Below, one piece after another: positions 16,810 through 41,868 of a stretch of DNA of 64,000 bases (its first letter is position 1; every line of letters starts with the position of its first letter). The notes beneath the pieces were generated by a model. The model was not told the origin of the DNA, ran no database searches, and saw only the letters and a program-made list of their open reading frames with translations. The DNA is from Lachnospiraceae bacterium (GTDB lineage: Bacteria; Bacillota; Clostridia; Lachnospirales; Lachnospiraceae), in assembly GCA_017480195.1 (NCBI GenBank), contig JAFVBE010000003.1, forward strand, positions 1 to 64,000, given 5' to 3'. The position numbers were made by a program, and so were the translations under genes.

Positions 16810-16833
16810 TAAATATTTAATGTAGTCAAGGGC

Positions 16834-17126
16834 GGTTAGAGGATTTGGTATGCTTTGATTGCCCCAATATACAGTTTCTTAAATAATGAATATAAAAAGG
16901 TAGTTTGCCAACACGCAAGCAATTTACTAAATCAGTAAACTCAAATTCTCTACGCTCTGCACGAAACAGACAACTCGCTTCGCTCAAACAGTCTGTTTCT
17001 GAGCGAGCCCATTCGAATTTTCGTTGCTGATTCCACATAAATTGTGCGAATCATTGGCATAACTACCTTTTCATATTCATTTCAAAGTTTTATATATTGG
17101 GGCAATCAAAGTATACCCCTCTAACC
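16834..17126. repeat. Long structured hairpin element, copy A
   Basis: Outer arms 16834-16871 and 17092-17126 are complementary apart from a 4-nt insertion. A second inner pairing block joins about 16886-16908 with 17060-17085, giving arms of roughly 75-85 nt. Between them is a 145-bp core (about 16911-17055) that matches, in reverse orientation, the core of the element at 23921-24147. It lies directly after secDF and may also act as its terminator. No protein is encoded. Confidence 0.75.
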
Positions 17127-17136
17127 GACACGCTAC
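17122..17136. repeat. 15-bp direct repeat, copy 1
   Basis: TAACCGACACGCTAC, repeated at 17946-17960. The preceding bases are also similar (GTATACCCCTC against GTACCCTATA). The pair brackets 824 bp holding the 53-bp array and the decayed gene. Confidence 0.7.
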
Positions 17137-17169: not shown

Positions 17170-17455
17170 AACTTATTACAGACTTAATAATATAGAACCT
17201 TGATTTGGTCCGTAGGTCATGGAAAGAAGTGCAGACTAAATTGAGTAATGTGTAGATATAGTCCGTAGGTAATAGTAAAAAATACAGACTAAATAGAGGA
17301 AAGTCCTGATATAGTCCGTAGGTCATGAAAAAAAATACAGACTAAATTGTACGAAGTGCTGAATTAGTCTGTAAGCTTTGAAAAAGTATACGGACTAAAT
17401 TTGGTAAAACACTGACTAAGTCTGTATACTTATGAAAAATTAGCGGAGTAATCTA
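17170..17455. repeat. Tandem array of 53-bp repeats with internal dyads
   Basis: The motif GTC(C/T)GTA recurs at 17208, 17261, 17314, 17367 and 17420, exactly 53 bp apart. The partner motif CAGACT/CGGACT/CGGAGT recurs at 17179, 17232, 17285, 17338, 17391 and 17444 with the same period. So there are five units plus a leading half-unit. Each unit holds TAGTC(C/T)GTA and TAC(A/G)GACTA, which are near-complementary, so each could form a 9-bp stem. The rest is A-rich. No reading frame spans it. Confidence 0.85.
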
Positions 17456-17616
17456 ATTATATTCTCATTTATCTTTGATCTTTTCTTAGTGTATCCTATA
17501 TTATATCTGTATTTCATATTGTTTGACAAAATATAATCCATAGGATAGTATATAAATAATTAAAAAATCGGTGTTTGTTTAGGTCTTTGAAGTTTTTTTA
17601 ATAAGGGGATAAGAAA

Positions 17617-17972: not shown

Positions 17973-18993
17973 TTTACACGCAAAATTATGATTGGTTAAG
18001 CTTGGCTTTAAGTTCTTCGATTTCTTTTGTAAGCTCGGCAATTATTTTATCACTTTCAGCTCTGCCTTCAGCTATACCTTCAGCCCTGCCTTCATCCTTA
18101 CCAGCCCAGAATATTTTGTCAGCTTCGGTAACAATTACATGTCCGCCCATATTCTTCACCAGATTCCTTTCATTTTCATTACCGTTTGTTACATGCCTGA
18201 TAATTATATCCATATATGTGATAAAGTTGTTGTAATCATATCCGCTTATGGATTCATTATGAAATGATTCTGCAAGGAAGCCAAGGAAGAAGTCTAAGTC
18301 GGTTTCAACCTCGTTAAGCTCATCTGTAGTTGCAGTTTCATCCTTCATAATGCTTTCATATCTGAGTATGTAAAAAGGTATTAAAACATAAAGTTTCTTT
18401 TCTATTATTTCTTCTTTTGTAAAATCGCTTAGTATCAGATTGTCGGCATCATAATCAACTGCTTTACCGTTTGGAAACTTATATGTAATTTTGGTCCTTT
18501 TAGGTGTTGCAGAATTGCTTCTTATGTAGATGACGGTGTAGTATGGCATCTCAATTACCAGACGTCCGTTATCCTTTTTAGCAGCCTGCCTTGCAGTAAG
18601 AAATGAATACTCGGCAATCCTTAAAGCTATTGAACCATCATTGTAGCTTTGACATTCTATCAGATACTTTTCATCACGTATTTTGATGATGAAATCAGTA
18701 ATCCTTTTTTCAATATCATGCTTGCCGTTTTCTTCCGAATATTCGGTTATATATTCGTCAGTAGGAAGCAGTTCAACAGCTTCATTTAAAGAATAATTCT
18801 TTTGAAATTTGTAATTAATTAAGGGTATGAAAAACCTCGGATGGTTACTCTTAAGAGACTGGAATACATCATCAAAGGTATTTGAATAATCAACATTATT
18901 ACCCTTAATATTGTCAGCTTTGTAAGTCATAACTTATTCTTCCCCCTTATTGTACAATATAGTATTTTTGATTTCAATAATTTTGCGTGTAAA
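17973..18993. mobile_element. 1-kb nuclease unit bounded by perfect 17-bp terminal inverted repeats
   Basis: TTTACACGCAAAATTAT at 17973-17989 is the exact reverse complement of 18977-18993. The 1021-bp unit contains just one gene, an Rpn/PD-(D/E)XK protein, whose stop codon lies inside the left repeat. This is the architecture of a simple insertion element. No target-site duplication was found, so mobility is inferred. Confidence 0.6.
17986..18930 (-). CDS. Rpn-family/PD-(D/E)XK nuclease ('transposase'-like)
   Basis: 314 residues. The N-terminal two thirds match the recombination-promoting nuclease/PD-(D/E)XK putative transposase family: an F-D-x-V-F-x-x-L start and a catalytic core of Asp in ITDFIIKI followed by YLIECQSYND (Glu-x-Gln in place of Glu-x-Lys). 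The C-terminus has the family's typical GRAEGIAEGRAE run and a short coiled coil. Known Rpn proteins are DNA endonucleases that promote RecA-independent recombination. Full length. The last codons and stop come from the terminal inverted repeat. Confidence 0.85.
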   Translation of the reverse strand: MTYKADNIKGNNVDYSNTFDDVFQSLKSNHPRFFIPLINYKFQKNYSLNEAVELLPTDEYITEYSEENGKHDIEKRITDFIIKIRDEKYLIECQSYNDGSIALRIAEYSFLTARQAAKKDNGRLVIEMPYYTVIYIRSNSATPKRTKITYKFPNGKAVDYDADNLILSDFTKEEIIEKKLYVLIPFYILRYESIMKDETATTDELNEVETDLDFFLGFLAESFHNESISGYDYNNFITYMDIIIRHVTNGNENERNLVKNMGGHVIVTEADKIFWAGKDEGRAEGIAEGRAESDKIIAELTKEIEELKAKLNQS

Positions 18994-21590: not shown

Positions 21591-21645
21591 TAAATTAGTT
21601 GTGTCAGCAGTTTAGAAAATGTCTTAGGTTAGGAGAGTGATACTT

Positions 21646-23910
21646 ATGTCAGATTCTGCTTTAATACCGCACAGTACATTAAAAAATGATTTAAGTACCC
21701 CAAGTGATTTTACACCACCTGAGGAATTATACGAGCAGCTCAAGGAGACGGTACTTAGATACCATCCTTCAGATGATTTAAAATTGATAGAAAAAGCGTA
21801 TAATGTGGCAAGTGAAGCACATAAGGATCAGAAGCGTAAATCGGGTGAACCATATATTATTCACCCTATTTGTGTTGGCATAATTTTAGCAGAGCTTGAG
21901 CTTGACAAGGAGACTATAGCGGCAGGACTTCTGCATGATGTAGTGGAAGACACTGCCATGACGACAGAGGAAATATCCAAAGAATTCTCTCCTGAGATTG
22001 CGGTTTTGGTAGATGGGGTTACCAAGCTTACACAATTAGATTTGTCTCAGGATAAGATAGAGATTCAGGCGGAAAACCTGCGTAAGATGTTTCTTGCCAT
22101 GGCGAAGGATATACGAGTTATCCTTATTAAGCTTGCGGACAGGCTGCATAACCTTAGAACTCTACAATATCAGTCTCCTGCAAAGCAGATAGAGAAATCA
22201 CTTGAAACAATGGACATATACGCACCGCTTGCGCACAGGCTTGGTATATCCAAGATAAAGATTGAACTTGATGACCTGTGTATGCAGTACCTTTATCCAG
22301 ATGTGTATAAAGAGCTTAAGGAAGAGGTAAGGAACAGGGTTGCGGCAGGCGAAGATTTCATCAACAGTATGGTGGAGGAAGTAAAGCAGTATATGAAGGA
22401 GGCTGACATAGAAGCCGAGGTAGACGGAAGAGTTAAGCATATGTTCAGCATATACAAGAAGATGGTTACTCAGGGTAAGACCATAGATGAGATATATGAT
22501 ATTCATGCCATAAGAATTAAGGTTGAGACAGTGCGTGACTGTTATGCGGCACTTGGTATTATTCATGAGAAGTTCAAGCCTATACCGGGAAGATTTAAGG
22601 ACTATATCGCTATGCCGAAGTCGAATATGTATCAGTCGCTTCATACCACGCTTATCGGACCTGAGGGCAAGCCTTTTGAAATTCAGATAAGAACCTTTGA
22701 AATGCACAGGACTGCCGAATATGGTATTGCTGCGCATTGGAAATATAAGGAAGGCGTAGGCGGTAAGGATAAGGAAGAGGAGAAATTAAGCTGGCTCAGA
22801 CAGATACTTGAATGGCAGACGGATACCACTGATAACAAAGAGTTTGTGGGGGCAGTAAAGACTGACCTTAATCTTTTCTCCGACCAGGTGTATGTATTTA
22901 CTCCTGCGGGAGATGTTAAGAACCTGCCTACAGGCTCAACTCCGATTGATTTTGCATATAACATTCACACTGCGGTTGGTAATAAGATGATAGGTGCTCG
23001 TGTAAACGGACGACAGGTGCCTATTGAGACGGAGCTTCACAATGGTGACCGTGTTGAGATTATCACATCCCAGAATTCCAAAGGTCCAAGCCTTGACTGG
23101 CTTAATTCTGTCAAGAGCTCGCAGGCTAAGACTAAGATTAACCAATGGTTCAGACTTGAGAACAAGGAAGATAATATACAGAAGGGTAAGGATGCCATTT
23201 CTGCTTATTGCAAGTCAAAAGGCATTGTCCTGTCGAATCTGCTTAAGCCGGAATATATGGACAAGGTGCTGAAGAAATATAATTTTCAGACATGGGATGC
23301 GCTTCTTGCCAGTATAGGACACGGCGGTTTGAAAGAAGGACAGATAGTAAACCGTCTGAATGAGGAATATAAAAACGAGCTTGCGCGTAAGGTTACTGAG
23401 AGTGATATAGTAGAAAAAATTAACACTCCGGGACGCTCGGCTAAAAATCATAAGGACGGAATTATAGTAAAAGGTATAGATGATGTCGCAGTAAGATTCT
23501 CAAAATGCTGTGCACCTGTGCCGGGGGATGAGATAGTCGGATATATAACAAGAGGAAGAGGTATATCTATCCATAGGACGGACTGTATAAATATCCTCTG
23601 TATGGACGAATACGACAGAGAACGACTTATCGAGGCCGAATGGTCTGAGGAGCAGTCCCAGAGCTCCAATGTCTACAGTGCCGAGATTAATATATATGCT
23701 TCCGAACGACAGGGACTTGTCTTTGCCTTAACCAAGATATTTAACGAAGAAAATATTAATCTTACGGGTATGAATGTACGCGTAAGCAAGCAGGGCAAGG
23801 CGACCATATCCGTAAAATTCGATATACACTCCAAGGAACAGCTTATGAAGATAATTGCTAAAATAAGAAATATCGAAGGTGTTATCGACATAGAGAGAAC
23901 TACAGGATAG
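21646..23910 (+). CDS. relA: Bifunctional (p)ppGpp synthetase/hydrolase RelA/SpoT
   Basis: 754 residues from ATG 21646 (AGGAG ten bases upstream; GTG 21637 is nearly on the ribosome site). Order: HD hydrolase domain with the HDVVEDT and KLADRLHNLRTL motifs, the synthetase domain with GRFKDYIAMPKSNMYQSLHT, the TGS domain (VYVFTPAGDVKNLP), a helical/zinc-finger-like region with KCCAPVPGD, and a C-terminal ACT domain. Intact HD residues predict hydrolase as well as synthetase activity. It sets the stringent-response level. A long hairpin element follows the stop. Confidence 0.96.
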   Translation: MSDSALIPHSTLKNDLSTPSDFTPPEELYEQLKETVLRYHPSDDLKLIEKAYNVASEAHKDQKRKSGEPYIIHPICVGIILAELELDKETIAAGLLHDVVEDTAMTTEEISKEFSPEIAVLVDGVTKLTQLDLSQDKIEIQAENLRKMFLAMAKDIRVILIKLADRLHNLRTLQYQSPAKQIEKSLETMDIYAPLAHRLGISKIKIELDDLCMQYLYPDVYKELKEEVRNRVAAGEDFINSMVEEVKQYMKEADIEAEVDGRVKHMFSIYKKMVTQGKTIDEIYDIHAIRIKVETVRDCYAALGIIHEKFKPIPGRFKDYIAMPKSNMYQSLHTTLIGPEGKPFEIQIRTFEMHRTAEYGIAAHWKYKEGVGGKDKEEEKLSWLRQILEWQTDTTDNKEFVGAVKTDLNLFSDQVYVFTPAGDVKNLPTGSTPIDFAYNIHTAVGNKMIGARVNGRQVPIETELHNGDRVEIITSQNSKGPSLDWLNSVKSSQAKTKINQWFRLENKEDNIQKGKDAISAYCKSKGIVLSNLLKPEYMDKVLKKYNFQTWDALLASIGHGGLKEGQIVNRLNEEYKNELARKVTESDIVEKINTPGRSAKNHKDGIIVKGIDDVAVRFSKCCAPVPGDEIVGYITRGRGISIHRTDCINILCMDEYDRERLIEAEWSEEQSQSSNVYSAEINIYASERQGLVFALTKIFNEENINLTGMNVRVSKQGKATISVKFDIHSKEQLMKIIAKIRNIEGVIDIERTTG

Positions 23911-23920
23911 ATTATAAATA

Positions 23921-24147
23921 CCGCACTAAGGCGGAATAATGTGGGTAGGCGGTTATAGCAACAATTCGCACAATTTGCGTAAAATCAGAAACGAAGTGTT
24001 CGAATATATTCGCTCAGAAATCGAGCTGTCTGAGCGAAGCGAGTTCTCGATTTCGTGCGAAATATAGAGAACCTGAGTTTACTGATTTAGCAAATTGATT
24101 GCGAGTTGCTATAACCGCCTACCCACATTATTCCGCCTTATGTGCGG
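23921..24147. repeat. Long structured hairpin element, copy B (also relA terminator)
   Basis: Arms 23921-23962 and 24105-24147 are complementary over about 42 nt, enclosing a 142-bp core. The right arm ends GTGCGG and is followed by CAGTTTTTTATTT, so the structure can terminate relA and, on the other strand, the convergent kinase-like gene. The core matches that of 16834-17126 read backwards. An internal stem, GAAATCGAG with CTCGATTTC, is GAAACAGAC with GTCTGTTTC in the other copy: both sides changed together. Confidence 0.8.
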
Positions 24148-24154
24148 CAGTTTT

Positions 24155-24676
24155 TTATTTATTATTAATTCTGTCTATATAATCAATAAGGAAGTTTGCG
24201 GTTCCTTCGATACCAAGACGGCTACTGTTTATGGTTATATCATAGGTTGAAGCGTCGCTCCACTCAGATTCCGAGTGACTGTTGTGGTAGCTTCTTCTTG
24301 TTCTGTCGTGACGTTTGATTTTATTTGTAGCTTCGCTCTCATCATCAATGTTGAACTTGCGTTTTACACGCTTGATTCTGTCATCAAAGTCTGCGGTAAC
24401 GAATATACTTATGATGTTGTATCTGTCGCGCAGTATGGTTTCCGCGCATCTTCCGACAACCACGAAGGATTCACGCTCGGCTGCTTTATTCTTAATATAG
24501 TCAAATTGGAGTTCTTCTAAGGCATCTGTATTGATGTCCGGCTTTTCGTGTGCGACATCATCTAATATGCTTCTGTCATACATCATAATGCCATAATGCA
24601 ATGCTATCTCACGGGCTATATCATGACCGCCGCTTCCGAATTCTCTACCGATAGTAATAATAATCTGATTTGCCAT
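24155..24676 (-). CDS. Cytidylate kinase-like protein
   Basis: 173 residues from ATG 24676 with AAGGAGG just upstream. The N-terminus ITIGREFGSGGHDIAREIA is the P-loop form typical of the cytidylate-kinase-like family (AAA_26). DRSILDD and the GRCAETIL segment follow. In the lid region, the Arg-rich KRHDRTRRSYHN fits phosphate contacts. It phosphorylates a nucleotide or related small substrate; this family lacks the classic CMP-binding insert, so the substrate is unknown. Convergent with relA. Confidence 0.88.
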   Translation of the reverse strand: MANQIIITIGREFGSGGHDIAREIALHYGIMMYDRSILDDVAHEKPDINTDALEELQFDYIKNKAAERESFVVVGRCAETILRDRYNIISIFVTADFDDRIKRVKRKFNIDDESEATNKIKRHDRTRRSYHNSHSESEWSDASTYDITINSSRLGIEGTANFLIDYIDRINNK

Positions 24677-24742
24677 ATAATGACCTCCTTTGACTAAAAA
24701 TCTCATATACTAATTTTATTATAAAACAGTGTTAAATGCAAT

Positions 24743-41810: not shown

Positions 41811-41868
41811 TGGCGGGGGTTTCCCCCGCCGCTTGGTGGACCAGGGTCTTTCGACCAGCCCTATAACT
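41811..41868 (-). ncRNA. Structured RNA leader of the DUF3800 gene
   Basis: On the minus strand the leader holds GGTC-GAAA-GACC (41856-41845; a GNRA tetraloop), flanked by a duplicated CTGGTC, then a very stable GGCGGGGG-AAA-CCCCCGCC hairpin (41830-41812). About 26 nt then lead to the ATG. Several 'DUF3800' RNA motifs upstream of such genes have been reported from comparative genomics. Which of them, if any, this matches needs a covariance search. Confidence 0.6.

Follow-up and report, generated by a model that had tools for sequence, protein, structure and literature searches.

The gap behind relA in a Lachnospiraceae genome holds one of 40 copies of a long palindromic repeat, which on balance is best read as a non-autonomous mobile element that acts in the form of its folded plus strand (the one bearing GCGNAGC), most likely as single-stranded DNA. 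Two copies, A and B, lie in the 64,000-nt stretch of DNA that was analysed (the window) and consist of the following parts:

23914..23956 (+): left arm of copy B, about 42 bp pairing with 24106-24147
23957..24105 (+): core of copy B, family model R1, cmsearch 167.2 bits
24026..24045 (+): apical 20-mer CTGTCTGAGCGAAGCGAGTT of copy B with the mini-hairpin GC-GAA-GC, found by pattern search and recurring elsewhere
24106..24147 (+): right arm of copy B, from the inverted repeat and fold, followed by a T6 run at 24151-24156
16827..16911 (-): copy A arm that carries an outer foot (GGTTAGAGG..), its outer end placed approximately
16912..17058 (-): core of copy A, family model R1, cmsearch 140.5 bits
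16972..16991 (-): apical 20-mer of copy A, CTGTTTGAGCGAAGCGAGTT, found by pattern search
17059..17129 (-): second arm of copy A, carrying the outer foot CCTCTAACCGACACG, its outer end placed approximately

Anatomy, family size and genomic position

Copy B (window 23914-24147) consists of a core flanked by a 42-bp inverted repeat and lies between relA (21637-23910, +) and a cytidylate-kinase-like gene (24155-24706, -). The stretch from about 23905 to 24157 folds as a single hairpin of about -136 kcal/mol (RNA parameters), a long structure with several small asymmetric internal loops. Copy A carries the same core reversed, behind secDF at 16912-17058. A preliminary description of this DNA had noted shared core blocks and the opposite orientation of the two cores; the blocks are as stated there, and covariance model R1, which was built from 61 copies with copy B among them, recovers the cores of A and B at 140 and 167 bits. 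From the outside inwards, the layers of the element are an outer foot in some copies (TCGRTTAG, present in 16 of the 40 copies of the host genome), variable arms, a conserved lower stem, an inner stem that comes in discrete types, and the apex CTGTYTGAGCGAAGCGAGTT. The total length with arms is about 230-300 nt. The window also contains an array of short inverted units (AGTCCGTAGGTCATG..CAGACTAAAT) at 17200-17500, with similar arrays in L016 and L233, a 314-aa protein near copy A (17986-18930, -) without a Pfam match at E 0.001, and a DUF3800-XI RNA (Rfam RF02975, 65.3 bits) at 41815-41862 (-).

A blastn search with the whole element as query gave 44 matches in the host genome, which reduce to 40 distinct copies once three split copies are merged and one self-inverse match is dropped. 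With the covariance model, for which at most 85 candidates were scored per genome, 285 matches were found in 11 of the 37 genomes of the genus and none in the other 26. The host genome has 43 of these, some of which may be reverse-strand matches of the same copies, and the further carriers have 45 (G007), 35 (G023), 35 (G024), 34 (G019), 33 (G022), 25 (G013), 21 (G015), 10 (G011), 3 (G032) and 1 (G017). A chance pair with no further copies, the case that would have undone the preliminary description, is excluded by the 40 blastn copies and 43 model matches. The seven relatives nearest by relA (86-97%; the rest at most 82%) all carry the element. Under stricter filters, weak matches were obtained in 6 of 199 other genomes of the wider family. 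Non-carrier species have different long hairpin-like stretches, seen by eye, behind relA (L207-L209) and secDF (L251). The preliminary description had also considered a non-coding RNA family; no Rfam 15 family matches the window copies, 16 cross-phylum loci or 8 clade loci at threshold, and sub-threshold matches are weak (e.g., SAM-II at 17.2 of 44 bits).

The family sits mostly at gene 3' ends. According to simple reading-frame calls, in which seven copies are overlapped by a short frame, the neighbours of the 40 host copies are convergent in 18 cases, tandem in 21 and divergent in one. This position, the T6 run after copy B and the frequency of TTTT after the stem (in 9 of 40 copies on each strand, compared with 2 on the plus and 5 on the minus strand in controls further out, the stem ends coming from local alignment that may overshoot) would fit transcription terminators that happen to share tips. 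However, such a T run on either strand is found in just 16 of the 40 copies, and terminators have no need of a 20-nt apex that occurs across phyla; that the family consists mainly of terminators is highly unlikely. Orientation is balanced with respect to replication (20:20 among the 40 host copies), the replication strand being assigned by GC skew, in agreement with coding bias (r 0.98); a replication-strand bias is thus absent.

Pairing, strand asymmetry and the apical mini-hairpin

A selected single-strand hairpin, as proposed in the preliminary description, is supported by three observations. Among 61 aligned copies, both sides have changed in 30 of the 44 core pairs. Pairing is retained in 94.9% of core cells, compared with 84.1% after shuffling and 24-46% in slid controls, against which the core structure is favoured because it was derived from the same sequences. 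Finally, mispairs are asymmetric, with G.T exceeding A.C by 90 to 52 cells in the core and by 134 to 70 in the arms of 70 distinct copies, counts that are not independent since many arms are related. Under mere DNA copying, G.T and A.C should be about equally frequent, because they represent the same event seen from two strands. Thus, the strand that carries the GNA apex seems to be the one whose pairing is favoured. Mutation bias is a possible alternative cause of the G.T excess, which also fits RNA.

The hairpin ends in a GNA or GNNA loop on two G-C pairs. Among clade copies whose closing pairs are intact, the only ones counted, 79 of 85 loops have this form, namely GAA (60), GTA (10), GTAA (5), GCA (2), GAAA (1) and GTTA (1), and the rule is broken by AAA (5) and ACA (1). 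In G364, a Lachnospiraceae genome that holds locus L092, 28 of the 34 one-mismatch variants listed fall on the N position, where T, C and G are all used. The 26 variants listed for G379 comprise 12 at N, 12 at the first pattern base, which lies outside the mini-hairpin, and two AAA loops. DNA hairpins with GNA or GNNA loops on at least two G-C pairs are described in the available text of PMC4686876 as extraordinarily stable and nuclease-resistant, with GCGAAGC melting at 78 degrees. Loops of this type fit single-stranded DNA better than RNA; those with GAAA or GTAA would suit RNA tetraloops as well.

A structured non-coding RNA family, or a 3'UTR element acting as RNA, would account for the strong conservation of pairs with changes on both sides, for a G.T excess on one strand, for the position behind gene ends and for the GNRA-like loops of some copies. 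Yet most loops are GNA triloops, no Rfam family matches, and at orthologous sites tips switch and copies are inverted or missing (see below). Moreover, in 13 of the 40 copies both neighbouring genes run antisense to the plus strand, and one further copy lies between divergent genes; if the simple reading-frame calls are correct, read-through would not make the plus strand there. We regard an RNA as a rather unlikely working form and prefer folded single-stranded DNA.

The apex extends far beyond the genus. Its pattern of 19 fixed bases occurs in at least 117 stretches of the genome collection, where about two are expected by chance, and CTGTYTGAGCGAAGCGAGTT is found again, often in multiple copies, atop unrelated stems in Bacteroidota, Proteobacteria, Nitrospirota and others. 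Carriers among the matches listed include Bacteroidota, Variovorax, Ralstonia, Nitrospira, Selenomonas, Gastranaerophilales and Pacebacteria, and three viral-contig stretches also have the apex. When 299 genomes of the phylum were drawn evenly, nine contained it (the host genome included) and none the backward pattern. The 25 genomes reached through apex loci, which were chosen because the pattern is present, have 1 to 137 occurrences each with at most one mismatch (Lachnospiraceae 137, Noviherbaspirillum 72, Ralstonia 54, Arcicella 53, Bacteroides 35), and the backward control pattern occurs 0 times in 22 of them and 2, 5 and 8 times in the rest. Tips elsewhere fold with z < -3 in 62 of 119 cases, compared with 7 of 119 control stretches, and 57 of the 119 miss this value; arm complementarity lies above the control's 99th percentile in 62 of 123. 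A boundary pentamer (GTTAA, GATCA etc., a set picked after viewing the data) precedes the apex by no more than 24 nt in 62 of 140 tips; for random stretches the figure is 48 of 360. That unrelated stems, from Lachnospiraceae to Nitrospira and Variovorax, bear this 20-nt apex points to horizontal spread or a common machinery. Among frames of at least 80 aa within 3 kb of apex loci, no common neighbour gene is evident; the largest cluster of neighbouring frames (12 loci) looks spurious, lying across or beside the element, and the other clusters comprise at most six loci and include no evident mobility enzyme, as judged by eye. Tentatively, the loci may belong to a cross-phylum superfamily of gene-less single-stranded-DNA hairpin elements, which would grow hairpin-in-loop, exchange their tips and possess a naturally selected, nuclease-resistant GNA cap. 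If so, this cap would prolong the life of the folded strand sufficiently for it to spread by means of host enzymes.

Differences at orthologous sites

Comparison with a sister species (G013) covered 16 of the 40 host copies, those with at least one flank in the G013 stretches examined. The element is absent from G013 at five of these sites (both window copies, L047.0, L047.1 and L056) and present at 11, at two of which the tips are lost (L052, L062). Empty sites in relatives, which the preliminary description had suggested looking for, thus exist, and together with the 21-45 model matches per genome in eight related genomes they support its notion of a mobile hairpin. At L047.0, G013 has the bare outer hairpin only, with a short loop. 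The element is therefore nested in the loop of another hairpin, where its gain and its loss are indistinguishable. Core pairs stand back-to-back in G007, G015, G022, G023 and G024. When four loci (L013, L025, L030, L033) were compared with themselves, each showed a small hairpin separating its two cores; three of the loci are in addition surrounded by an outer repeat of 22-28 bp, the whole forming a cloverleaf of about 690 nt. Three host copies (L061, L063, L065) share the same 80-nt tip insert with two hairpins, which is lacking in their G013 orthologs. At the secDF site of clade species (L231, L233, L235), other hairpins stand on a similar GTCGG..CCGAC foot. Terminator-like hairpins with unlike stems and a common loop form, TTTTTGCATGAATGCAA, were noticed by eye in L231 and L234.

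Nine orthologous pairs have readable tips, which were compared over the inner 67 nt with the 80-nt inserts left out. A switch between types I and II occurred in six pairs; in L061 the type is kept, yet the tip is only 78% identical to its ortholog, and the tip itself is kept in two pairs (L041/L276, L043/L271). In seven of the nine, the inner tip is 72-78% identical to the ortholog, and in the same seven the sister's tip matches at 90-100% at another site of its counterpart's own genome, the host. The lower stem is 93-96% identical to the ortholog in L042, L060 and L065, 81-85% in L055, L061 and L063, and 73% in L007. Lower stem and tip are about equally diverged in L055 (83/78%) and L007 (73/75%), so that the element may have been replaced as a whole at these two sites; L007 also differs in arms and orientation and may hold a different element.

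These switches bear on the inner stems of copies B and A, GAAATCGAG/CTCGATTTC and GAAACAGAC/GTCTGTTTC, which the preliminary description had taken as direct evidence of covariation. The sequences are as given there, but by themselves they do not demonstrate two independent compensatory mutations: GAAATCGAG and GAAACAGAC belong to two tip types that differ blockwise, and the change from one to the other is the switch seen in the six orthologous pairs. Given such switching at orthologous sites, the reported covariation is largely block exchange of tips. Genomic covariation between copies can hence arise from DNA-level exchange and arm homogenisation, and not from RNA selection alone. Orthologous tip exchange also makes hairpin recombination in bacterial chromosomes directly measurable.

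The arms behave differently from the description on one point and as described on another. They are complementary within each copy, as had been claimed, with a median local score of 24.25 compared with 7.0 between copies, and the own right arm is strictly the best match of the left arm in 34 of 40 copies; a cruder fixed-register score gives 77% within copies, 44% between copies and 33% for shuffled arms, with the own arm best in 26 of 40. The claim that arms are unrelated between copies goes too far: left arms have 48% in common between copies compared with 33% for shuffled arms, and their loose consensus, drawn by eye, ends in ..AGCAGGCAGTTATNGCAA. This resemblance, which exceeds that of shuffled arms, speaks against arms rebuilt from the target at each site. 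Judging from their sequences, the arms look like diverged descendants kept complementary within each copy.

The element is inverted at three of the 11 shared sites (L007, L062/L282, and L043/L271, which is cut by a contig end), and at L055/L011, a locus 86% identical overall, both arms changed together. Chimeric assembly is unlikely, because the site-specific arms on either side of the core match each other. Template switching between arms homogenises them and inverts the spacer (PMC8604942, in the part available), and at orthologous sites a joint arm change of this kind is found at L055/L011 and spacer inversions at L062/L282 and L043/L271. This published mechanism might by itself maintain neutral, self-perfecting palindromes with no selection, and would explain both the inversions and why arms are alike within copies and unlike between them. 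It is strained, however, by asymmetric internal loops and an apex that are conserved across species, the apex even across phyla, and by the inequality of G.T and A.C, and it leaves tens of copies and the exchange of tips between unlinked sites unexplained. Template switching alone is thus an improbable explanation, and a mobile repeat that acts as a folded DNA strand accounts for the data better.

Possible mode of spread and relation to known systems

Spread of such a mobile repeat could proceed through a single-stranded DNA intermediate, the plus strand being exposed during replication, repair or excision. The mini-hairpin cap might nucleate folding and shield the apex from nucleases, and the folded strand would then be copied or inserted, perhaps preferentially at other hairpins and into their loops. 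Tips may be swapped between copies via the conserved lower stems, and template switching between arms would keep the variable arms complementary and also invert the spacer. Points against this reading include the negative outcome for a target-site duplication and a mobilising enzyme (see below), the lack of a replication-strand bias, the AAA and ACA loops, the variants outside N in G379, the two pairs that kept their tips, the divergence of L055 and L007, and the 57 tips elsewhere that miss the folding threshold. The element suggests that bacterial genomes carry hairpin DNA in a manner that is still little known.

A mobilising enzyme was not found with the Y1_Tnp, SbcD and PDDEXK_2 profiles in the 37 genomes of the genus or among frames near apex loci. 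The PDDEXK_2 nuclease occurs in 9 of 11 carriers and 22 of 26 non-carriers. SbcD, the absence of which might allow palindromes to be tolerated, scores above the cut-off in 2 of the 11 carriers compared with 11 of the 26 non-carriers, with weaker matches in all 37 genomes, and is suggestive at most. The Y1 transposase (Y1_Tnp, PF01797) is present in 2 of 11 carriers and 6 of 26 non-carriers, several genomes being incomplete; this known single-strand transposase is thus not a general answer. A target-site duplication was not found either, and one empty allele keeps the outer hairpin and so gives no readable duplication.

In the literature on palindromic elements, palindrome recombination, GNA mini-hairpins and interspersed hairpins, to the extent available and mostly from non-subscription papers, the element is not described; the same holds for the accessible portions of PMC3733652, PMC1590033, PMC12306157, PMC8604942 and PMC4686876. 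The motif GAGCGAAGCGAG led only to papers with unrelated titles. Among known systems, REP, BIME and REPIN sequences with their RAYT are likewise intergenic, palindromic, high in copy number and of mixed orientation, and the inverted pairs recall BIME and REPIN layouts. These traits would suit a REP-like element moved by a Y1 (TnpA/RAYT) transposase. However, 9 of 11 carriers have no Y1_Tnp match, and the replication-strand bias is absent; single-strand transposons target the lagging strand (PMC6006769, available text). REPs, which have GTAG/CGTC end tags, are palindromes of 20-40 bp (PMC3733652, in excerpt), whereas the element is far longer and consists of nested modules with variable arms and a conserved GNA apex. 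A REP-like element moved in this way is very unlikely. A MITE of a known transposase family would be expected to carry the terminal inverted repeats of a resident transposon and a target-site duplication. The element has inverted repeats but no demonstrated transposase ends or target duplication, its arms vary by copy and its tips are exchanged. Foldback repeats and MITEs such as NEMIS, ERIC, Efa and Ype likewise fold into hairpins, and some lie preferentially near 3' ends (PMC1590033, available part). Template switching at quasi-palindromes similarly makes arms alike and inverts spacers; as described in the accessible text of PMC8604942, it concerns short repeats and yields no copies, conserved internal loops or tip exchange between sites. 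The super-stable DNA mini-hairpins resemble the apex in their GNA or GNNA loop on two G-C pairs. In the available text of PMC4686876 these are laboratory fragments and aptamer parts, whereas here the apex is genomic, known from sequence and spread across phyla. If the proposed reading is true, it would give the super-stable DNA mini-hairpin a natural role.
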